Shown piece by piece: positions 6,730-15,462 of a DNA stretch of 51,527 bases. The translations under genes were made by a program, and so were the position numbers. Origin of the DNA: an uncultured Bacteroidota bacterium (GTDB lineage: Bacteria > Bacteroidota > Bacteroidia > Chitinophagales > Saprospiraceae). Every line of letters starts with the position of its first letter. Positions within the stretch are counted from its first letter, which is position 1. The DNA lies in contig CALMBD010000114.1 in assembly GCA_937861115.1 (NCBI GenBank), forward strand, positions 1 to 51,527, in the 5' to 3' direction. A model generated the notes under the pieces. That model saw only the letters and a program-made list of their open reading frames with translations. It was not told the origin of the DNA and did no database searches.

Positions 6730-9700
6730 TCACTTTTTCAGAAAATCAGATGTTATTTTCAATCGTTCGGGGTTCTCGTTGTAGGAAAATGCTACTACTG
6801 CTCGTCCACCTGCCGCAAGTCCTGTCAATCCAATTCCAATCCCTTTCACAATTGGATGTGGAACTTTTGACAGCCCTGTTCCAACAAGGCCTACACCTCC
6901 TGCAACCTTGTCAGAGACTTTTTGTGCTTCTCTGTTCTCTCTTGCTAATTGCTGTACGGGACTTAATCCGGAGTTTTCCTTTTTGAAATTCTGAACATCT
7001 TTTGCAATCTGTTGAAACTCCTGGCTTGCTTTATTCATTTCCAAGTTTTTATATTCATCAATTGTTGTTGTATTACTACCGGAAATAATGGTAGCAGTAT
7101 TTGTTTGACTCACCTCCCCGACGTTCCCGCTTTGGTCTATCTTCGTTGTGGTTATCTGCGTCTGGTTCATGGTATACAAGGTATTGCCCTCATCATCCTT
7201 TTGCACAGTTTGAGTTGTCACGATTTCCTTGACCATATCTGTTCCTTTGGTTTTACCCTTGTCGTCAAACCGGAAAGACACCTCTATTCTTCTCGTTGTT
7301 TGTGTAACGGTGGGTTTGGGCAGTTCAGCCTCCTTCCCATCCGGGTCGACAAACATCAAGGGGTTATTAAATGCATAATTATATGGGGAGTGTGGTTTCA
7401 TTTTCTCTGCAAGCGGATCAATACTCCACCATCTTCCAATTGCAGGATCGTACCATCTTGCGCCATAATCGTTGAGATTCAGGGCAAAATCGTCATTGTA
7501 CTCTTTGCTGTTATACTGGTACCTGTTGTCAGGAGCAACATTATTCATCCATGAATAAGTCATGTTCAATCCAAAGGGATAGTAATGATTTTCCTGAAGA
7601 ATATCGCCCGGGACATCCACAACATTGTTGGCGTTGAGGTCAGCAAAAGTCAGGCGCTCATTGCCCAAGTGGTCCTTGATTGTATATTCGTATTGATATG
7701 ATGTTCCGCCAAGTGGGACAATGCGACCTTCCAAGTGGTAGATTGCTTCCAGTGTCAACGCCCCCCCGCTATTTGTGCGGTATTCCAGCCCGTTCACATA
7801 GTCCTGGGTATAGCCTGCAGAAGTAGTCGGGGAAACTGTCCTGCGCAGTTTTTTACCCAACTGATCATATAAAATACTCATCGAACCATTCGATCCGAAA
7901 CTGAAATTGGTGGGCAGGTTCAAATGATTGTATGTGACAGACATACCAGTACTGGCGCCTTTGTACGGATCCAGTGTCATGTTGCCGTCGACGTCGTAAG
8001 AATAGGTTGAAGAACCTGTAGCGTAGATGCCTGGGTTAAAGCCCTGTGCCTTTGCCACATTACCGACCGCCGATTCCGTGATTTTCTGGATGCGATTTGA
8101 AGCGTAATTATATGTAAAAGAGAGATTGTCGATTACCCCGTTCGTATAACAGGTCGCGCTGACAGGGTCTTTATACAACCCTCTGCGTAAAAGCGAGGTG
8201 ATATTGCCTCTTATATCGTAAGTGACATTTTCCTGAAACTTGTTATCTGTAGATGCCGTTCCGGAAGAGGTGATATCAGCGTAATATGCCGACGTCAGCC
8301 TATTCAGAAAATCATACTGAAGTGAATATCCCTGACGCTGACGGCCCCTTGTTTGCCAGACCAACTGAGAAATATTGCCATTGCGCTGACCCGTCGGGCT
8401 GCCAAATGTGAATCCGGGTGTTTCGTAGTAAAGGTCAAGTTTGAAGATATCGTTGCCGTCGGGATTCGACGAGAATGCAGCTTCTGCCGGGTCTGGTGTT
8501 GCCGGGTTAGTGGCACATAAAGCAATAGCCGACTGACTCAAGGCGCTGAAACTACTACCGCCATTGATAGACGTTAGCCAGTTACGGTCGTTATAAGCAT
8601 AATCAATACTCTGCAGGAAAGAACTTGTCCCGCCAGAGGTAACTGCTCCAAGGCTTTTGTCGATCAACCGATCCCGGAAGTCATAGGCATATTGAGCCAA
8701 TTGTTTTTCTGCATTCGCATCAATTTTATGATACAATGCCGTCTGGCGACCGGAATGATCGTATGTCGAGCGGGTGGTCAGAGTCAGCGTAGCCGAAGAT
8801 GTACTGGATTTGTGTGCACGTACTTCGGTGAGAACATTTCCTGCATAATCGTAAGTATAGGTAAGGTTGTCTAGCCCTGTTCCATTCGTCAGGTGGTTGT
8901 TACCGCTATCGGTTACCATACGGCCGGTCACACTATTGTACGTGAAGTTTCGGGTGATGGGAATTGAATAACCCGGTATCCAGGTTTGGGAGGTAATAAG
9001 TTTGTCCAAACTGTAGGTATAGGCGGTATGTTGTTCATTATACGAAAGCGTGGCATTATTCGGATCCGGGTTTACACTGATATGAATACCATTGCTTATC
9101 GGTCGGCCATAATCATCATATTTATTTAGCAACCACTTGTTGGCAGATTGAAAAACTCCTGTCTGAGTAAGAACTAACTGATCGCGCAAGTTAAATTTCA
9201 TATTAATCCCGGCCATATCAGGAATCTTTTTGTATGTCATATGATTCGCAGCGTCATAGGCATATTCATAGCGGAGATTGCTTTCCGACAAACCTGTTCC
9301 GACTCCAGGGGGCAATACCTTTACTACTCGGTTTTTATCATCGTAAAGGGTATATGTATTGGCAACATTGGTGGATTCCTTTTGACAGGAGAGCAACACT
9401 CGGCCTTTTTTATCCTTGTACGTAATGGTTTGAAGATTTTTGGTGGCAGACTGTGGTTTGGTCACTGTACTCTTAAAAAGACTGTTCGCAGCGTAATACG
9501 ATGTTAGTGTAGTACCGTCGGAGTATCCTACTTCACTGGTTGTATTGGCAGCATAGGTAATTGAAGCAGCATAACCTCCCGGAGGGGTAATAACCGTTTC
9601 CCGATTCAGAGGCGACGTTTCATATTGTGTCCAGGTGTACGTCTGCCCACCCGGAACCGTAGCAAATGCACCTGTGTTCACTGCCGTTTCAAATGGGGTG

Positions 9701-12700
9701 TACTGTTTTGTTACACGTCCCTGGTTGTCATACTCCACTGCACTCACCACATCCTTTTGTGCCGGCGACCAGCCTTTTTTCACGGTCTGTTGAGACCGAC
9801 CCAGCCCGTCGAGGTATTCTATCGATTCGGTACTCGTCAGGCTACTGCCGGTTACTGCCGTGAAACTGTTTTTCGCCTTAATCCAGTTGCGCGTATCTGA
9901 TACTTCGTTGAAGTGATAGGTGTATTCCGTTTTTACATTTCCATCCACCACCGCACCACTGACCACGCTGGCGTTGTCTTTTGTGCTCTTCGTCAGTCGC
10001 ATCAACCAGTCGTATACAAAACCCGTTTTCCGTCCGTCTATATCGGTAATCGACCGTAACAGCCGTGTGCCAGGGTAGTAATCGTACGTAATGACGTGGC
10101 TTTTGTAGGTTTTCGACTGTAGCTGGCCGCCTGTAGTCCATACGTATGTTTCCGGGTCAGTCCAGTTGGCTGTTGTAAACGAGGCCGGGCTGCCTTTGGT
10201 GTTGTAGCTGTTCATCGTACCCTTTAACACCCAGGTACCCGTTGTCGGGGTGCCGTTGCTCCAAGTCATTTCATAACTATAGAAAAGCCGTGGCCGGACA
10301 TGGGTGGAAGAAATACAGGACGTACTGCTGTAAAATGTACCGCTATCGTTAAAGGAAGCAAAATCTTTGCGACTGCCCTCTACCTGCAAGCCCCCCACCT
10401 TAGTGACAATCTCGTAGGGTTCGCCAATGATGTTGCGCGCCAACAACTGGTCTCGGAGGCACCCGGCGGTAAGGTCGTAGGGATACTTGTATTCCTTCCG
10501 CGTCACCTTGTTATCCGAATTGGTCATTACCTCGGCCGTCGGCATAAAGTAGTTGTTGAAATTGCCGTATTCGTAATTGGTAGTAGTCGTTACCCCGTCG
10601 AGCATTTCCACCCTTGTATCGAGGCGATAAACGCTTGACAACAGAACGTATTTTTCAACCCGGAAGCCCGTGTAGGTGTGTGTTTCCTCGCTTCCCAAAT
10701 AATTGTGTTTGCAGGCTAGAGGGATCGTCAAAACCTTGTTTATCGAACCGGTATTGACCTGAATGCCATACTCTGCACCTGTTGATGTCGTGGAGGCCAC
10801 CAGTGCATTTGAGGTATTATAGGTGCGTTCCTGGTCCGGCTTGCCCAGCGTCACCGACGGGCGGTCCGGCGTCAGCGGGTAGGTGTACAACGGCGGATTG
10901 CTTTGTGTGTACAAGAAGGTATACACCTTGTATCCGTTGCCGTTGTGGTTTTCCTTCACCCGTTTGTAGCCGCAGTGAAAGCCCTCGAAATTAAACATCG
11001 GCACCATCGATTGCTCGGTAAAGATCATCTGGTAGTACGAGATATAACCGGGCATGTGGTTGGAGGGTATGTCTATGGCTGCCGTGCCTTCCACATTGAA
11101 GCCATATACCGGCATTTTGTACAATACACCGCTCGAAGCCGTCGCAGAGTTTTCCTCCAGGTATTCGTAGGTTTTTACAAGATCGTTTGCCGAAGGCGTT
11201 ACGTCCTGACTGCGAATTTCCTTGATGCGCAGGCCGCCGACGGTTTTGTTCTGAAGCGATGAGGTCGTAGAATTGATGTACAACTGCCCATAGCCGTCGG
11301 TCGTGGATATCCTGAATTTATAATTGGTGTTGGCCAGGAAGGTAATGCCGTTGCCTTCCAGGTAAGACAGGTTGACTTCCGGCGACCAGACCGTCTGATT
11401 ATCCGGATTGCCACTGATATTGAACGAATAGGAGCCCATCGTGGCGTTGTCCGACCCGCGCAGTGCCGTTACCGTAACCGGCACGGTATACTGGTTCACG
11501 CAAGTCGACGGCGCCGGAGGACTGAAATACGGGGGAATATCCGCCAGGGATATTTTGAACTTGGTATTGTTGTTCTGCAACTCCGTGGAGGTGAACTGGA
11601 TATTCGCCGAGGTATTTGTCTGCACACCACAGCAGTTGCCAATGTACAGGTCGGCGCAACTGTACAAGTGCAGTTTTTCAACCGTTGTCGGCACCATTGT
11701 CTGCACCGTATTGGCTTCGTAGGTAAATTTCGTTTTGCCGCCTGTCGGGTATTTTATTGCGATCAACATGCCTTTTTTCAACCATGTTTCGTTCGACTCC
11801 TTGTTGGCATTGCCGAAGGTGACGGTGGTGGAACTGTTGGGCACCGTAAGGGTTGTGGACGGAACACTCACCAGTTGCGTTTCATTTGCCAGGGCGCCGT
11901 TGTAAAACCCCCAGTGGTCGGTCGCTTTCGACATCCGCCAGGGCAGGAAATTGCTGCTGTAGGTAAAAACATACGGCGGAATGGTCGTAGCCGGGCCGCC
12001 GCAGCTACTTTCCTGCACCTGATTCAGCCGCAAGCGTTTGTACAAACTGGTCGTCTGAACAGAGGTTGTATCCGTAAAGTAGTCGTAGGAAAACGTAAAG
12101 CGCTTACAAGCCACCTGAGGCGAACCGGATTTAATGTCGACATATTCCAGTCGCTTGGCATCCAGCGCGTGCAGGTTGTCGGGATTCAGGTCGAGGCGGT
12201 TGGTCGTGGCCATAAAATCGAGGGTTTCCGTACTGCTGCTGATGCTGCGCAGGCGCTTGCCGTCGATCTCCGTCTGGAAGCCGGGGTGATAGGTGTCGAT
12301 GCCCGTCGGGTGGCATTCATAGCCGGTATTGCCCTGCGGATCAGGGCAAAATGCCGAGTTAAATTCCTTTTGTTTGCAGGGGGCATAGTTCCAGTAGGAA
12401 TAGTATTCCTGGTCGTAGGAAAGGTTGATCGAATACTTCAGGTCAGGCGTTTCCACTTTCAGCAGGTACCAGCTCGAGCAGTAGGTTTTCGTCGAAGGTT
12501 CGCCAAACTGGTGGGTGTATTCCCGGGCTGCTACCGTTGAACCGCTTATAACTGCTTCGCCAAAGGTGTAGCGCGTACCGTCGGTGCCGATGAGCGTGAA
12601 TTTGGTGAACGAAGAATTGAACTCCAGTTTAAGGTCTTGCCTCGGGATAAATGTATAGGCAGGCTTGCCTTGCGACGCTGCGGCGCTGTAATCGATATAA

Positions 12701-13224
12701 AACTTGCCGCTGTAGCCACCGACATTGAACGTGAACAGGTCGGGCTCGGTATCGAGGTTGCCCTGACCCGCCTGACTCAGCATGTCTTTGTGGCTCTGAA
12801 TGTTGAGGTCAAATGTCGCCGGCAGGTTGGCGCCATTGGGATAGTAGCCATAGGGATACGACTCATCGGGGATGCCCTGCACCGTGCGGGTGATGATGCC
12901 TCCCGCATTCAGACTCCAGCCTGTACCCACCCAACTGGCCATTTCTGCAACCTTGATACCCGAGGCGTGGTAACTGAGTTCCACCGGCAGCGATAATGGC
13001 CCCTCCTGCACCGTATGGATCGGAATTTTGATCTCCGGAATACCCGTAAATAGGTTGACCGGTATATCGCCGTATTTGCCCAGGGCTGCGGCATTCGGTG
13101 CGGCCATGACGGCGCCCGAAACGTATTTATTGTTGGGCTGTGCGCTGATTTTCAGGGAAATAAGCGCCAATACGATCACCTGAATCAGGCGAAAAGAGTG
13201 TGTTTTGATGTCAGGGTACAGCAT
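6730..13224 (-). CDS. Giant RHS/YD-repeat exported protein with a variable C-terminal tail
   Basis: I chose the start at 13222-13224 because it immediately precedes a signal peptide (MLYPDIKTHSFRLIQVIVL...KISAQ). Upstream in-frame starts at 13231-13233, 13318-13320 and further overlap the promoter elements. This gives 2164 residues. The N-terminal part has the Bacteroidota RHS shell (VNLFTGIPEIKIPIHTVQEG, SWVGTGWSLNAGGIITR). A long run of YD repeats follows (for example YDYAGNVLTEVRAH, YDFRDRLIDKSLG). The RHS core ends at YGARWYDPAIGRW, SIDPLAE, SPYNYAFNNPLMFVDPDGK. After DPDGK comes a tail of about 201 residues (coded at 6733-7335) that is polar and Thr-rich, then has a Gly-rich hydrophobic stretch (VAGGVGLVGTGL to GLAAGGRAVVAF). 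Family knowledge: RHS cages often carry polymorphic toxin tips. No immunity gene follows; only 50 bases separate it from the M43-like gene. Confidence 0.85.
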   Translation of the reverse strand: MLYPDIKTHSFRLIQVIVLALISLKISAQPNNKYVSGAVMAAPNAAALGKYGDIPVNLFTGIPEIKIPIHTVQEGPLSLPVELSYHASGIKVAEMASWVGTGWSLNAGGIITRTVQGIPDESYPYGYYPNGANLPATFDLNIQSHKDMLSQAGQGNLDTEPDLFTFNVGGYSGKFYIDYSAAASQGKPAYTFIPRQDLKLEFNSSFTKFTLIGTDGTRYTFGEAVISGSTVAAREYTHQFGEPSTKTYCSSWYLLKVETPDLKYSINLSYDQEYYSYWNYAPCKQKEFNSAFCPDPQGNTGYECHPTGIDTYHPGFQTEIDGKRLRSISSSTETLDFMATTNRLDLNPDNLHALDAKRLEYVDIKSGSPQVACKRFTFSYDYFTDTTSVQTTSLYKRLRLNQVQESSCGGPATTIPPYVFTYSSNFLPWRMSKATDHWGFYNGALANETQLVSVPSTTLTVPNSSTTVTFGNANKESNETWLKKGMLIAIKYPTGGKTKFTYEANTVQTMVPTTVEKLHLYSCADLYIGNCCGVQTNTSANIQFTSTELQNNNTKFKISLADIPPYFSPPAPSTCVNQYTVPVTVTALRGSDNATMGSYSFNISGNPDNQTVWSPEVNLSYLEGNGITFLANTNYKFRISTTDGYGQLYINSTTSSLQNKTVGGLRIKEIRSQDVTPSANDLVKTYEYLEENSATASSGVLYKMPVYGFNVEGTAAIDIPSNHMPGYISYYQMIFTEQSMVPMFNFEGFHCGYKRVKENHNGNGYKVYTFLYTQSNPPLYTYPLTPDRPSVTLGKPDQERTYNTSNALVASTTSTGAEYGIQVNTGSINKVLTIPLACKHNYLGSEETHTYTGFRVEKYVLLSSVYRLDTRVEMLDGVTTTTNYEYGNFNNYFMPTAEVMTNSDNKVTRKEYKYPYDLTAGCLRDQLLARNIIGEPYEIVTKVGGLQVEGSRKDFASFNDSGTFYSSTSCISSTHVRPRLFYSYEMTWSNGTPTTGTWVLKGTMNSYNTKGSPASFTTANWTDPETYVWTTGGQLQSKTYKSHVITYDYYPGTRLLRSITDIDGRKTGFVYDWLMRLTKSTKDNASVVSGAVVDGNVKTEYTYHFNEVSDTRNWIKAKNSFTAVTGSSLTSTESIEYLDGLGRSQQTVKKGWSPAQKDVVSAVEYDNQGRVTKQYTPFETAVNTGAFATVPGGQTYTWTQYETSPLNRETVITPPGGYAASITYAANTTSEVGYSDGTTLTSYYAANSLFKSTVTKPQSATKNLQTITYKDKKGRVLLSCQKESTNVANTYTLYDDKNRVVKVLPPGVGTGLSESNLRYEYAYDAANHMTYKKIPDMAGINMKFNLRDQLVLTQTGVFQSANKWLLNKYDDYGRPISNGIHISVNPDPNNATLSYNEQHTAYTYSLDKLITSQTWIPGYSIPITRNFTYNSVTGRMVTDSGNNHLTNGTGLDNLTYTYDYAGNVLTEVRAHKSSTSSATLTLTTRSTYDHSGRQTALYHKIDANAEKQLAQYAYDFRDRLIDKSLGAVTSGGTSSFLQSIDYAYNDRNWLTSINGGSSFSALSQSAIALCATNPATPDPAEAAFSSNPDGNDIFKLDLYYETPGFTFGSPTGQRNGNISQLVWQTRGRQRQGYSLQYDFLNRLTSAYYADITSSGTASTDNKFQENVTYDIRGNITSLLRRGLYKDPVSATCYTNGVIDNLSFTYNYASNRIQKITESAVGNVAKAQGFNPGIYATGSSTYSYDVDGNMTLDPYKGASTGMSVTYNHLNLPTNFSFGSNGSMSILYDQLGKKLRRTVSPTTSAGYTQDYVNGLEYRTNSGGALTLEAIYHLEGRIVPLGGTSYQYEYTIKDHLGNERLTFADLNANNVVDVPGDILQENHYYPFGLNMTYSWMNNVAPDNRYQYNSKEYNDDFALNLNDYGARWYDPAIGRWWSIDPLAEKMKPHSPYNYAFNNPLMFVDPDGKEAELPKPTVTQTTRRIEVSFRFDDKGKTKGTDMVKEIVTTQTVQKDDEGNTLYTMNQTQITTTKIDQSGNVGEVSQTNTATIISGSNTTTIDEYKNLEMNKASQEFQQIAKDVQNFKKENSGLSPVQQLARENREAQKVSDKVAGGVGLVGTGLSKVPHPIVKGIGIGLTGLAAGGRAVVAFSYNENPERLKITSDFLKK

Positions 13225-13292
13225 ACGGATCATGCGGATTGCCGGTAGAGGAAGTTTTGTGAGCAGCGTGTTTTCCGGGAATTTTTCCGAAA

Positions 13293-13300
13293 CAAAGGTG
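13293..13300 (-). promoter_or_regulatory. Putative -7 box of the RHS gene, within a conserved 12-base element
   Basis: The minus strand reads CACCTTTG, one base off TAnnTTTG. The plus-strand block CGAAACAAAGGT (13288-13299) recurs exactly at 15189-15200 in front of the lipoprotein gene. Both copies lie at the same distance from the ATCATTTTG(T/C)GCCA block. Confidence 0.5.
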
Positions 13301-13315
13301 GGGGTGCAGGTAGTG

Positions 13316-13360
13316 ATCATTTTGTGCCATTTGGGGTCAGATGGGGCCAATTGGGGCCAG
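13316..13360 (-). promoter_or_regulatory. Array of 10-bp-phased repeats upstream of the RHS promoter (candidate operator)
   Basis: In gene direction the array is four contiguous decamers: CTGGCCCCAA, TTGGCCCCAT, CTGACCCCAA, ATGGCACAAA (13351-13360, 13341-13350, 13331-13340, 13321-13330). The period is exactly one DNA turn. The array ends in a block ATCATTTTGTGCCA (13316-13329, plus strand) that is 13/14 identical to 15217-15230. The decamers lie about where an activator would sit upstream of the -33 region. Binding by the adjacent HTH protein is inference. Confidence 0.55.
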
Positions 13361-13403
13361 GTATTACCGGTAAGTCGAGTACCGAATATTCCAATAAATA
13401 CTA

Positions 13404-13439
13404 CGGGGTAACCGGGACGAACCTGTCCCAATTACCCCG
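13404..13439. repeat. Nested perfect inverted repeat between the HTH gene and the RHS promoter
   Basis: CGGGGTAA (13404-13411) pairs with TTACCCCG (13432-13439). Inside it, GGGAC (13414-13418) pairs with GTCCC (13425-13429), with symmetric 2-base internal loops. On the minus strand it is followed by TAGTATTTATTGG, a weak tail. It may end the HTH transcript or be an operator. Confidence 0.55.
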
Positions 13440-13594
13440 AAGGCAATACACTGGTTAATGTTGAGGTCTGGAGATAGTCAATTACATAACGAGATATCGC
13501 GTGCTGTACAAAACTCGCGACGGCATACTTTTAACAGCGGTCAAATTGTAAAATTGAAGTAAGCATATCAGGCTGATTGGATGTTGACGCCGTT

Positions 13595-13798
13595 TCAGGC
13601 CATTTCGAGCCATCCCAAACTCTTGTATATCTCCACCTGTTGCTCCGGCCCGATCAGGCCCCTTGGTATCTCAATCCGGGCATCCTTGAGCCGCCGCTGA
13701 AAAGTGCGCAGGCTAAAGCCCATGGCATCGGCAATTTCTTTTTTGTAACGCGCTCTGGTTTCGGAGTTAAGCGCAGTGATGGCGAGTGACTTTGTCAT
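13595..13798 (-). CDS. Small HTH DNA-binding protein, paralogue of the one at 15253-15462
   Basis: The protein has 67 residues and is basic in its N-terminal half. An HTH-like segment is visible at about 19-45 (KKEIADAMGFSLRTFQRRLK: helix, MGFS turn, candidate recognition helix). It is followed by a conserved tail with RGLI-x-P, Y-xx-LGWLE. The other small protein in this window aligns along nearly its whole length with the pattern KK-xxAD-x-MG-x-SL-x-T-xx-R-xx-K-x-A, then E-xx-RGLI-x-P, then Y-xx-LGWLE. I do not recognise a named family. It lies directly upstream of, and in the same direction as, the RHS gene, so a regulator of that gene is a reasonable inference. There is no signal peptide, consistent with a cytoplasmic regulator. 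Confidence 0.75.
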   Translation of the reverse strand: MTKSLAITALNSETRARYKKEIADAMGFSLRTFQRRLKDARIEIPRGLIGPEQQVEIYKSLGWLEMA

Positions 13799-13924
13799 GC
13801 TGAAGGTAGTTTTGTGTGTCGATTAATGGTAAAATGCTTCGACAAAGTTGATTCATCATTACAGGCTATTCAACTACACTTTTTTTGAATTTTCCGGGAT
13901 ACCGGTTTAGCAGGCAAAAAAAAA

Positions 13925-13951
13925 CACCAACTGGTACAAGTCCAGTTGGTG
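13925..13951 (-). terminator. Strong terminator of the lipoprotein gene
   Basis: CACCAACTGG (13925-13934) pairs perfectly with CCAGTTGGTG (13942-13951) around a 7-base loop. On the minus strand it is followed by nine T. It lies 24 bases after the stop codon of the gene ending at 13975. Confidence 0.9.
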
Positions 13952-13974
13952 CAGTCAAACAAATGGGAAAACTT

Positions 13975-15063
13975 CTAGTTGCTGGCCGTACAGGAAGTAA
14001 CTGACGTGGAGAAAAACTCAGATACCGAGCTCGGAACAAAATCAAAGAAGTTGCTCGCCCAGCATGTACAGTTACTTACGTATATTGCCGTTCCATAATA
14101 ATTTGAGTAGGTAACATCATCGTCAAAGCGAACTTGATTGATGCTAAAAGCAGGTGCGCCATTGATTGGTGAAGTAATTCCGGACAGACTTCCCCCTCCG
14201 GAGACAGTCAGGTTGGAATTTTCGTAGTGCCACCCGATCCAGTTTTTGTATTTGCTTTCGCAGCGGTGCTGTACCCGGCAGCTCAGGGTGTAAAAGTAGA
14301 TGGGATAAGAACCTGTTCGAATCGGATTTTCGATCGTTATCCAGACCTTTCCTTTTACTTCGCGGCTTCCATTGTTGTTATTGTTCGTCTTATTGCCACA
14401 CGTTAGTTCGGGGCCCCTTGCTGTAATACCTTCTGTGTTATCCAGGTCGTAATTTGCTACGGCGAGGTGGTAAATGGGTGCAATGAATACATCCTCCGTT
14501 TGGGTACCTATCGGCTGGGTTTCCGCATTTTTTAAAGCGGCATAGTCGCCTTTCACCCTGATGGAGCGATCATTCGTGTATTTCCAAATCTCATCGCCGA
14601 TTTTCACAACACCCTCTTCGTTCAGCACGCAGCGGTAGTAATGCATCCAAAGCATTGGTTCAAGATCAACCTCATCGCCAATAAGTACTTTGTTGCGCCA
14701 TTTTTCGCGAAATGCATCCAATTTTGTTTGATCGCCAGATTTTACGATCTCGCTTAAATCTGCCTTGGCATCTTCAAAAGCAACGCCGAAGGAACGGTAA
14801 CCGGAACCGGCAAATTGCTTTACCCAGTCTATGATCTCATCCCCGTTCAGGTTCTCAGTTTGTGCAACAACCTGATCAAAATGTTCGCGGTCCTTGAAAA
14901 CCAAATAGCCGTTTTCAACTTTTATTAAGGCTGATGACGGATTGGTTTCCGGAACTCTTTCCTTATTACAGGACGTCAAAAAAAACGTGATTCCGGCAAA
15001 AATACCGGCTGCGATGGCGAAGACGGACAGCAGTCCTCTCTTCTGGATCAATGTGATAGTCAT
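13975..15063 (-). CDS. Surface or periplasmic lipoprotein of unknown function
   Basis: The protein has 362 residues. A hydrophobic signal sequence ends in the lipobox FFLTSC (Cys32), so it is expected to be a lipoprotein processed by signal peptidase II. The N-terminal third has a motif frequent in Bacteroidota lipoproteins: a short strand (NGYLVFKDREHFDQVV) followed by helices (DEIIDWVKQFAG). The C-terminal half is rich in Asn, Thr, Ser and Cys (RVQHRCESKYKNWIGWHY, SNCTCWASNFFDF) and looks beta-rich. I cannot name a function. It follows the small HTH gene at 15253-15462 with 189 bases between them, and its promoter shares a cis-element with that of the RHS gene. It ends at a strong terminator, so it is a self-contained unit. 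Confidence 0.8.
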   Translation of the reverse strand: MTITLIQKRGLLSVFAIAAGIFAGITFFLTSCNKERVPETNPSSALIKVENGYLVFKDREHFDQVVAQTENLNGDEIIDWVKQFAGSGYRSFGVAFEDAKADLSEIVKSGDQTKLDAFREKWRNKVLIGDEVDLEPMLWMHYYRCVLNEEGVVKIGDEIWKYTNDRSIRVKGDYAALKNAETQPIGTQTEDVFIAPIYHLAVANYDLDNTEGITARGPELTCGNKTNNNNNGSREVKGKVWITIENPIRTGSYPIYFYTLSCRVQHRCESKYKNWIGWHYENSNLTVSGGGSLSGITSPINGAPAFSINQVRFDDDVTYSNYYGTAIYVSNCTCWASNFFDFVPSSVSEFFSTSVTSCTASN

Positions 15064-15193
15064 TGTTGTTAGAGTAGTTTGTGTACCTCCCTCTTTCTGG
15101 CTCGAAGGATTTTGCCCCGTTTACTCTTTTATGGATTTTCAACGGCCCGTCTCCGAAATGTTCCGGGATAAACTCCGGAGGATCATTTCGAAA

Positions 15194-15201
15194 CAAAGGT
15201 C
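15194..15201 (-). promoter_or_regulatory. Putative -7 box of the lipoprotein gene, within a conserved 12-base element
   Basis: The minus strand reads GACCTTTG, one base off TAnnTTTG. It is part of CGAAACAAAGGT (15189-15200, plus strand), identical to 13288-13299. The leader to the start codon would be about 125 bases. Confidence 0.5.
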
Positions 15202-15216
15202 ATATCACATTGATAT

Positions 15217-15251
15217 ATCATTTTGCGCCAAATGGGCTCAATTCAGATCAA
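15217..15251 (-). promoter_or_regulatory. 10-bp-phased repeats upstream of the lipoprotein promoter (candidate operator)
   Basis: In gene direction it reads TTGATCTGAA, TTGAGCCCAT, TTGGCGCAAA (15242-15251, 15232-15241, 15222-15231), three decamers each with TG at positions 2-3. It ends in the block ATCATTTTGCGCCA (15217-15230, plus strand). The distance from this block to CGAAACAAAGGT is 28 bases start to start, exactly as upstream of the RHS gene. The array abuts the stop codon of the HTH gene. Confidence 0.5.
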
Positions 15252-15252
15252 A

Positions 15253-15462
15253 TTAGCTCTTTTCCAGCCACCCCAACGCCTCATACACTATTCGTTGTTT
15301 GGAAGGGCTGATCAGCCCCCGTCCAACTTCCAGCTGTGCCCCCTTGATCTGTCGCTTGAGGGTGCTCAGGCTGATGCCCATTATGTCTGCCATTTGTTTC
15401 TTGTTAACTGCGTAAGGCCTGACAAGGTCGGGCGCCGGTGTTTTTTTTGTGTTTTGATACAT
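15253..15462 (-). CDS. Small HTH DNA-binding protein, paralogue of the one at 13595-13798
   Basis: The protein has 69 residues. A variable basic N-terminus (MYQNTKKTPAPDL) is followed by the HTH-like segment NKKQMADIMGISLSTLKRQIK and a conserved end with GRGLISP and YEALGWLEKS. It aligns without gaps over about 50 residues with the 67-residue protein at 13595-13798, while the N-termini differ. It precedes the lipoprotein gene, and its stop codon touches the phased repeats that probably control that gene. The same gene order (tiny HTH, then exported protein) is repeated immediately downstream. A regulator of its neighbour is inference. I do not recognise a named family. Confidence 0.75.
   Translation of the reverse strand: MYQNTKKTPAPDLVRPYAVNKKQMADIMGISLSTLKRQIKGAQLEVGRGLISPSKQRIVYEALGWLEKS

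Follow-up and report, generated by a model that had tools for sequence, protein, structure and literature searches.

The closest working analogue of the small proteins considered here is BldC of Streptomyces, a MerR-like wHTH protein of 68 aa and a repressor with a pleiotropic developmental regulon. In BldC, which works on 9-bp direct repeats, Arg30 recognises the G of a YpG step (PMC5859096). DUF4248 (PF14053), a family of small Bacteroidales proteins, has the same layout of an HTH followed by a TPxQ...LGxP tail (PMC6231650) and differs by a longer insert in the HTH. The HTH_17 excision factors RdfS and Xis are oligomeric wHTH proteins that occupy 10 bp per subunit, and RdfS can activate transcription; they differ in that their role is element excision, and the authors of the RdfS study did not find a consensus motif (PMC11963761).

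We analysed a window of 51,527 nucleotides from an uncultured bacterium of the Saprospiraceae, part of a 5.7-Mb draft genome in 348 contigs, in which two tiny HTH genes (A and B) are each followed by a gene for an exported protein. The features are listed below by window coordinates; tandem arrays were given a likelihood score (LLR) at periods 7-16.

6730..13233, minus strand: giant exported protein (DUF6443), partner of A; likely ATG at 13233
13293..13300, minus strand: -7-like box A, CACCTTTG, first base not T (by eye)
about 13313..13362, minus strand: array A, five 10-bp units TGGCCCCAAT TGGCCCCATC TGACCCCAAA TGGCACAAAA TG, units at 13318-13359, LLR 17.3
13588..13615, minus strand: array-like TGGC repeats across the 3' end of gene A, of which 13593-13612 fits the genus-wide array pattern
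13595..13798, minus strand: HTH protein A, 67 aa, recognition helix by analogy SLRTFQRRL
13975..15063, minus strand: lipoprotein-like exported protein, 362 aa, partner of B (ORF list; Pfam)
15194..15201, minus strand: -7-like box B, GACCTTTG, first base not T (by eye)
15204..15259, minus strand: array B, degenerate 10-bp direct repeats TTGAGCCCAT TTGGCGCAAA ATGATATATC, period-10 LLR 9.6
15253..15462, minus strand: HTH protein B, 69 aa, recognition helix by analogy SLSTLKRQI

The original prediction described two paralogous ORFs of 67 and 69 aa with a common RGLIxP and LGWLE pattern and unlike N-termini, and alignment of B with A confirms this, with 51% identity over 51 residues (E = 3.7e-12, tblastn-type match), far above chance. 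It had also placed an exported protein downstream of each HTH gene. This stands for the lipoprotein-like ORF next to B, for which Pfam returned no family at E ≤ 0.001, and for the giant next to A, whose signal peptide favours the ATG at 13233 over the TTG at 13431 given in the ORF list; DUF6443 is the sole Pfam match of the giant, and its RHS label comes by reading. What had been overlooked is the intervening DNA, in which 10-bp direct repeats and then a -7-like box lie between each HTH gene and its partner. Counted by eye, box A is 18 nt from the G in register with the array and 28 nt from that of the last full unit, and for array B, the last unit's G and box B are 18 nt apart. The best three units of array B (about 15230-15259) overlap the stop codon of gene B, and the repeats continue by eye to 15204; its LLR is below our threshold of 12, yet period 10 is its best period.

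Like BldC, these are tiny single-domain HTH proteins paired with direct repeats of variable number, a helix Arg is associated with the G of a pyrimidine-G step (here by covariation), and an AT-rich stretch lies four bases from the G (G-N4-AWWW in our unit matrix). Unlike in BldC, the repeats are spaced by 10 bp instead of 9 bp, and each cassette sits beside one exported gene rather than serving a pleiotropic regulon. The curated BldC model NF033787 returned no row for A or B at E ≤ 10 (HMMER filters drop weak matches) and no match in the window genome at E ≤ 0.01. From the period, promoter phase, co-direction and helix-unit covariation set out below, it is very probable that the HTH protein binds its array and governs the promoter of the next gene, most likely as an activator.

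A and B are members of a large bacterial family of tiny DNA-binding proteins that is apparently undescribed; a literature search, with subscription journals mostly outside its coverage, found no description of this HTH/array/partner arrangement among the papers listed. A 19-row profile was run against 42 genomes of the genus, 395 of the class and 398 of the family Saprospiraceae, scoring at most 15 candidates per genome in the family and class searches, so that family sizes are lower bounds. Within Saprospiraceae, matches at E ≤ 5e-7 occurred in at least 98 of 398 genomes and at least 43 of 112 genera. In the class genomes, among the matches listed, only a handful of short frames outside Saprospiraceae look like members, which is not a census. 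Matches at E of about 1e-5 on frames of about 400-600 aa, found class- and genus-wide, were taken as other HTH proteins and dropped. In the window genome, A and B are the only good matches, the third being a 436-aa frame at E = 2e-4. We fetched 161 member entries and excluded the second hits L112b, L145b, L152b and L164b everywhere, leaving 157 with the window pair included; the median ORF is 69 aa, taken over the 119 members in which an ATG was assigned ahead of the domain. One relative, L145 (G766:C234:4266-4574), is a 166-aa frame with two tandem HTH domains, like two fused subunits.

Against Pfam, all matches of A and B fell below the curated cut-offs; for HTH_17 (PF12728), B scored 13.2 bits against a cut-off of 27 and A was unlisted. 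HTH_23, HTH_28, HTH_8, HTH_17 and HTH_29 gave weak matches for 15-23 of 30 members at E ≤ 0.05 (HTH_17 for 15, best 4.3e-7); they are broad models. The HTH character ascribed to the small proteins is based on these profile matches and on the helix-unit covariation described below. The DUF4248 Pfam model matched 5 of 30 members at E ≤ 0.05, with no match for A or B at E ≤ 10, and a profile-profile comparison, for which DUF4248 was the sole family used, gave a probability of 94% (E = 8.5e-8). Downstream of DUF4248 genes there was no clear 10-bp array, the one of 19 loci over LLR 12 being an AT-rich stretch. Upstream arrays at three of the 19 loci were rejected as microsatellite or as lying within coding ORFs.

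The arrays recur across the family. A period-10 direct-repeat array with LLR ≥ 12 was found at or just past the HTH stop in 70 of the 147 members with enough sequence (window pair included), against 4 of 146 control regions of equal length taken upstream and 3 of 144 taken far downstream, and each of the other periods from 7 to 16 reached this score in 0-3 of 147 members. Period 10 was the best period in 95 of 147 loci versus 17 of 146 and 12 of 144 controls. In a self-match test, 37 of 151 loci scored ≥ 15, every one at lag 10 or 20, and the 19 of 144 upstream controls with such a score had scattered lags. Arrays were present in 23 of 42 scored members of the genus and in 3 of 10 scored outside Saprospiraceae; a 400-kb sample of Saprospiraceae DNA, drawn from known contigs at a distance from the matches, contained only two period-10 arrays with LLR ≥ 14, one of them an AAAG microsatellite. 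Arrays span 3-7 units, and the 74 arrays with LLR ≥ 11 have 67 different consensus units. Of the 148 members whose downstream sequence was long enough, 54 form a no-array class. Although MAG contigs may be chimeric, the array pattern recurs over many genomes.

The array units vary between loci, and they covary with the recognition helix. We computed mutual information between protein columns and unit positions for 62 cassettes less than 75% identical. The three top-ranked pairs involve columns 31, 32 and 26, all within the aligned recognition helix S-x-x-T-L-Y-R-W. Of the 50 cassettes with Arg at column 31, 47 have a G as unit position 7, compared with 1 of the 12 that have another residue there (p = 8e-9), and at less than 45% identity the association persists (16 of 18 versus 0 of 7). 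The base preceding the unit G is T in 67 of 74 units. Column 32 is correlated with position 0 (p = 2e-5) and column 26 with position 1 (p = 6e-5). For columns 26 and 32 the correlations fade at strict redundancy, to p = 0.055 and 0.09 below 50% identity and to 0.62 and 0.17 below 45%, and we therefore put weight on the column-31 pair. Column 57 and position 8 rank fourth; this pair is outside the helix, and we have no explanation for it.

The array is also positioned with respect to the promoter. Bacteroidota promoters have TANNTTTG as their -7 element (PMC6847099), and this sequence occurs within 60 bp past the array in 48 of the 74 arrays with LLR ≥ 11; windows further downstream contain it in 10 of 370 cases, and upstream windows in 17 of 471. 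In the other 26 arrays the strict element is absent over this distance. A common unit register was set by fit on the arrays alone. The unit G then lies 17-18 or 27-28 from the box in 36 of the 48 arrays that have one, and 41 of the 48 have a distance of 7 or 8 modulo 10 (Rayleigh p about 2e-15), as do 33 of 39 of a nonredundant set (p about 3e-12). Such phasing is what a bound protein touching RNA polymerase would be expected to give. Absence of a -33 element was considered as proof of activation and dropped, as array promoters have the TTG in place about as often (1 of 9 and 3 of 27) as background sites do (5 of 42), so that a missing -33 element is not demonstrable.

We consider it likely, with good confidence, that each tiny HTH protein is a dedicated local regulator that binds the array, its most likely effect being activation of the gene downstream, which usually encodes an exported protein. 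The protein would stack on the array, probably head to tail; because the end of the array keeps a constant helical rotation relative to the -7 box that follows, the stack would be expected to abut RNA polymerase, most likely activating transcription of that gene, perhaps in answer to an inducing signal. The opposite sign of control is possible, though we doubt it: an array-bound stack would cover the -33 region until a signal or dilution frees it. The last unit of the array does sit about where sigma region 4 should bind, and BldC is described as a repressor by which vegetative growth is sustained (PMC5859096); strict helical phasing to the -7 box, however, would suit an activator touching polymerase and would be unneeded for occlusion.

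A very unlikely reading is that a mobile element uses the repeats as sites for recombination or replication, with the HTH protein acting as an excisionase-like factor. The PHROG 'excisionase and transcriptional regulator' matches 10 of 30 members at E ≤ 0.01, and RdfS, an excision factor, likewise takes 10 bp per subunit (PMC11963761). Yet the arrays are phase-locked to a promoter box, and no relative was found in IMG/VR (searched with an A-like alignment, A2), in plasmids (A only) or in phages (B only); a viral, plasmid or phage origin was rejected on these searches.

The neighbouring genes were compared among members with an array, a weak array and no array. Of 70 array loci, 69 are followed by a gene in the same orientation, as are 23 of 24 weak-array loci and 28 of 54 no-array loci, the remaining 26 of 54 facing an opposite-strand gene. 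The proposal of a reusable regulatory cassette is supported; the check put forward with it, whether members tend to precede genes for exported proteins, was run on 157 distinct members. By our own heuristic for export (not SignalP), same-strand next genes are exported-like in 49 of 69 array, 16 of 23 weak-array and 19 of 28 no-array loci, against 97 of 259 genes of random stretches (array versus random, p = 7e-7). Since the three classes score alike, export tracks the HTH neighbour rather than the visible array in particular. Second genes downstream are exported-like in 79 of 119 cases and upstream genes in 17 of 53; the high score of the second genes blunts the claim of an exported partner and leaves the array claim untouched. 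Some partners, such as the radical SAM protein of L193, are not exported. At two array-bearing loci outside Saprospiraceae (L069 and L074), the next genes encode small proteins without a signal peptide, RHH-like by eye.

The 73 partners of arrays fall into 56 clusters. Pfam was run on 17 of these relatives' partners, mostly picked as complete, and on the window's two. The 17 include six with a T9SS sorting domain, two M43 proteases, two M4 proteases, one PKD protein and one radical SAM protein, and eight were unmatched. We regard as extremely unlikely a toxin pair, in which the HTH protein would be an Xre-type antitoxin and its exported partner a polymorphic toxin. B does match an Xre-like HTH weakly (PF20432, E = 8.2e-4, 20.1 bits against a cut-off of 25.8; A unlisted) and one partner is an RHS-like giant; we rate the antitoxin reading low because the partners are so diverse, and arrays occur also before genes without an HTH neighbour. 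Pfam named no cognate toxin among the 19 partners, of which the giant and the eight without a family could be anything. That the repeats are neutral tandem duplications with no relation to the HTH protein has a negligible probability: some arrays are perfect repeats, as slippage gives, but no period other than 10 is prominent, this one is so only past the HTH gene, and the units covary with the recognition helix.

Arrays lying away from any HTH gene bear on how private each code is. In the window genome the pattern TGGCNCNAANTGGCNC matched 7 times, against once for its reversed control. These matches comprise the site in the window, three more intergenic sites, one of them matched twice, and two in coding DNA. 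The genes that follow the three intergenic sites code for a lipoprotein, an exported protein and an HTH regulator. Across the genus, a 20-mer matched 12 times, in 6 of the 42 genomes, and its reversed control not at all. In the 8 genomes searched, the unit of L013 occurred at its own locus only and that of L200 at its own locus and one other. These few searches, with only two units followed, suggest that codes are mostly private and regulons small; a few codes may also serve arrays elsewhere in the genome. Among six such trans arrays examined, five (L236, L240, L241, L250 and L261) have, by eye, a box in the phase seen in the cassettes, that of L241 reading TTTA instead of TTTG. The trans array L251 (G010:C388) has a convergent gene ahead and no visible box, and the first of the two arrays of L246 lacks a box. 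L246 (G063:C166) is a divergent locus, its arrays lying between the HTH gene and an opposite-strand lipoprotein gene.

Because the protein-DNA codes differ between cassettes, paralogues in one genome need not cross-talk. We lean, with some reserve, towards a large modular family of private switches centred on Saprospiraceae, in which an HTH fold of about 65 residues would have co-diversified with a 10-bp ladder, phase-set before diverse and usually secreted or surface genes, with a code that is partly readable and could be used to predict targets. The cassettes form a natural series of regulator, operator and target side by side, whose recognition code can be read by covariation. They suggest a function for small proteins that models name only as HTH, and that environmental Bacteroidota may control a large secreted repertoire one gene at a time.

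Leaders of array genes can carry the Rfam DUF805b RNA motif (L191:620-654, L149:2609-2643, L261:1584-1619 and others). In 20 loci, some chosen for look-alike leaders, there were 3 matches above the cut-off and 5 below. Post-hoc regexes found a DUF805b-like form in 7 of 74 leaders and a variant in 4 of 74, compared with 1 and 0 of 76 non-array loci; these stricter regexes gave no match in 800 kb of background strands, and a looser one gave 9 of 74 leaders and 5 matches in background. The window has no Rfam match at gathering score, and 15114-15148, in the leader of the lipoprotein gene, is unmatched by the stricter regexes; by eye, this segment resembles the DUF805b-like leaders of L037 and L029.
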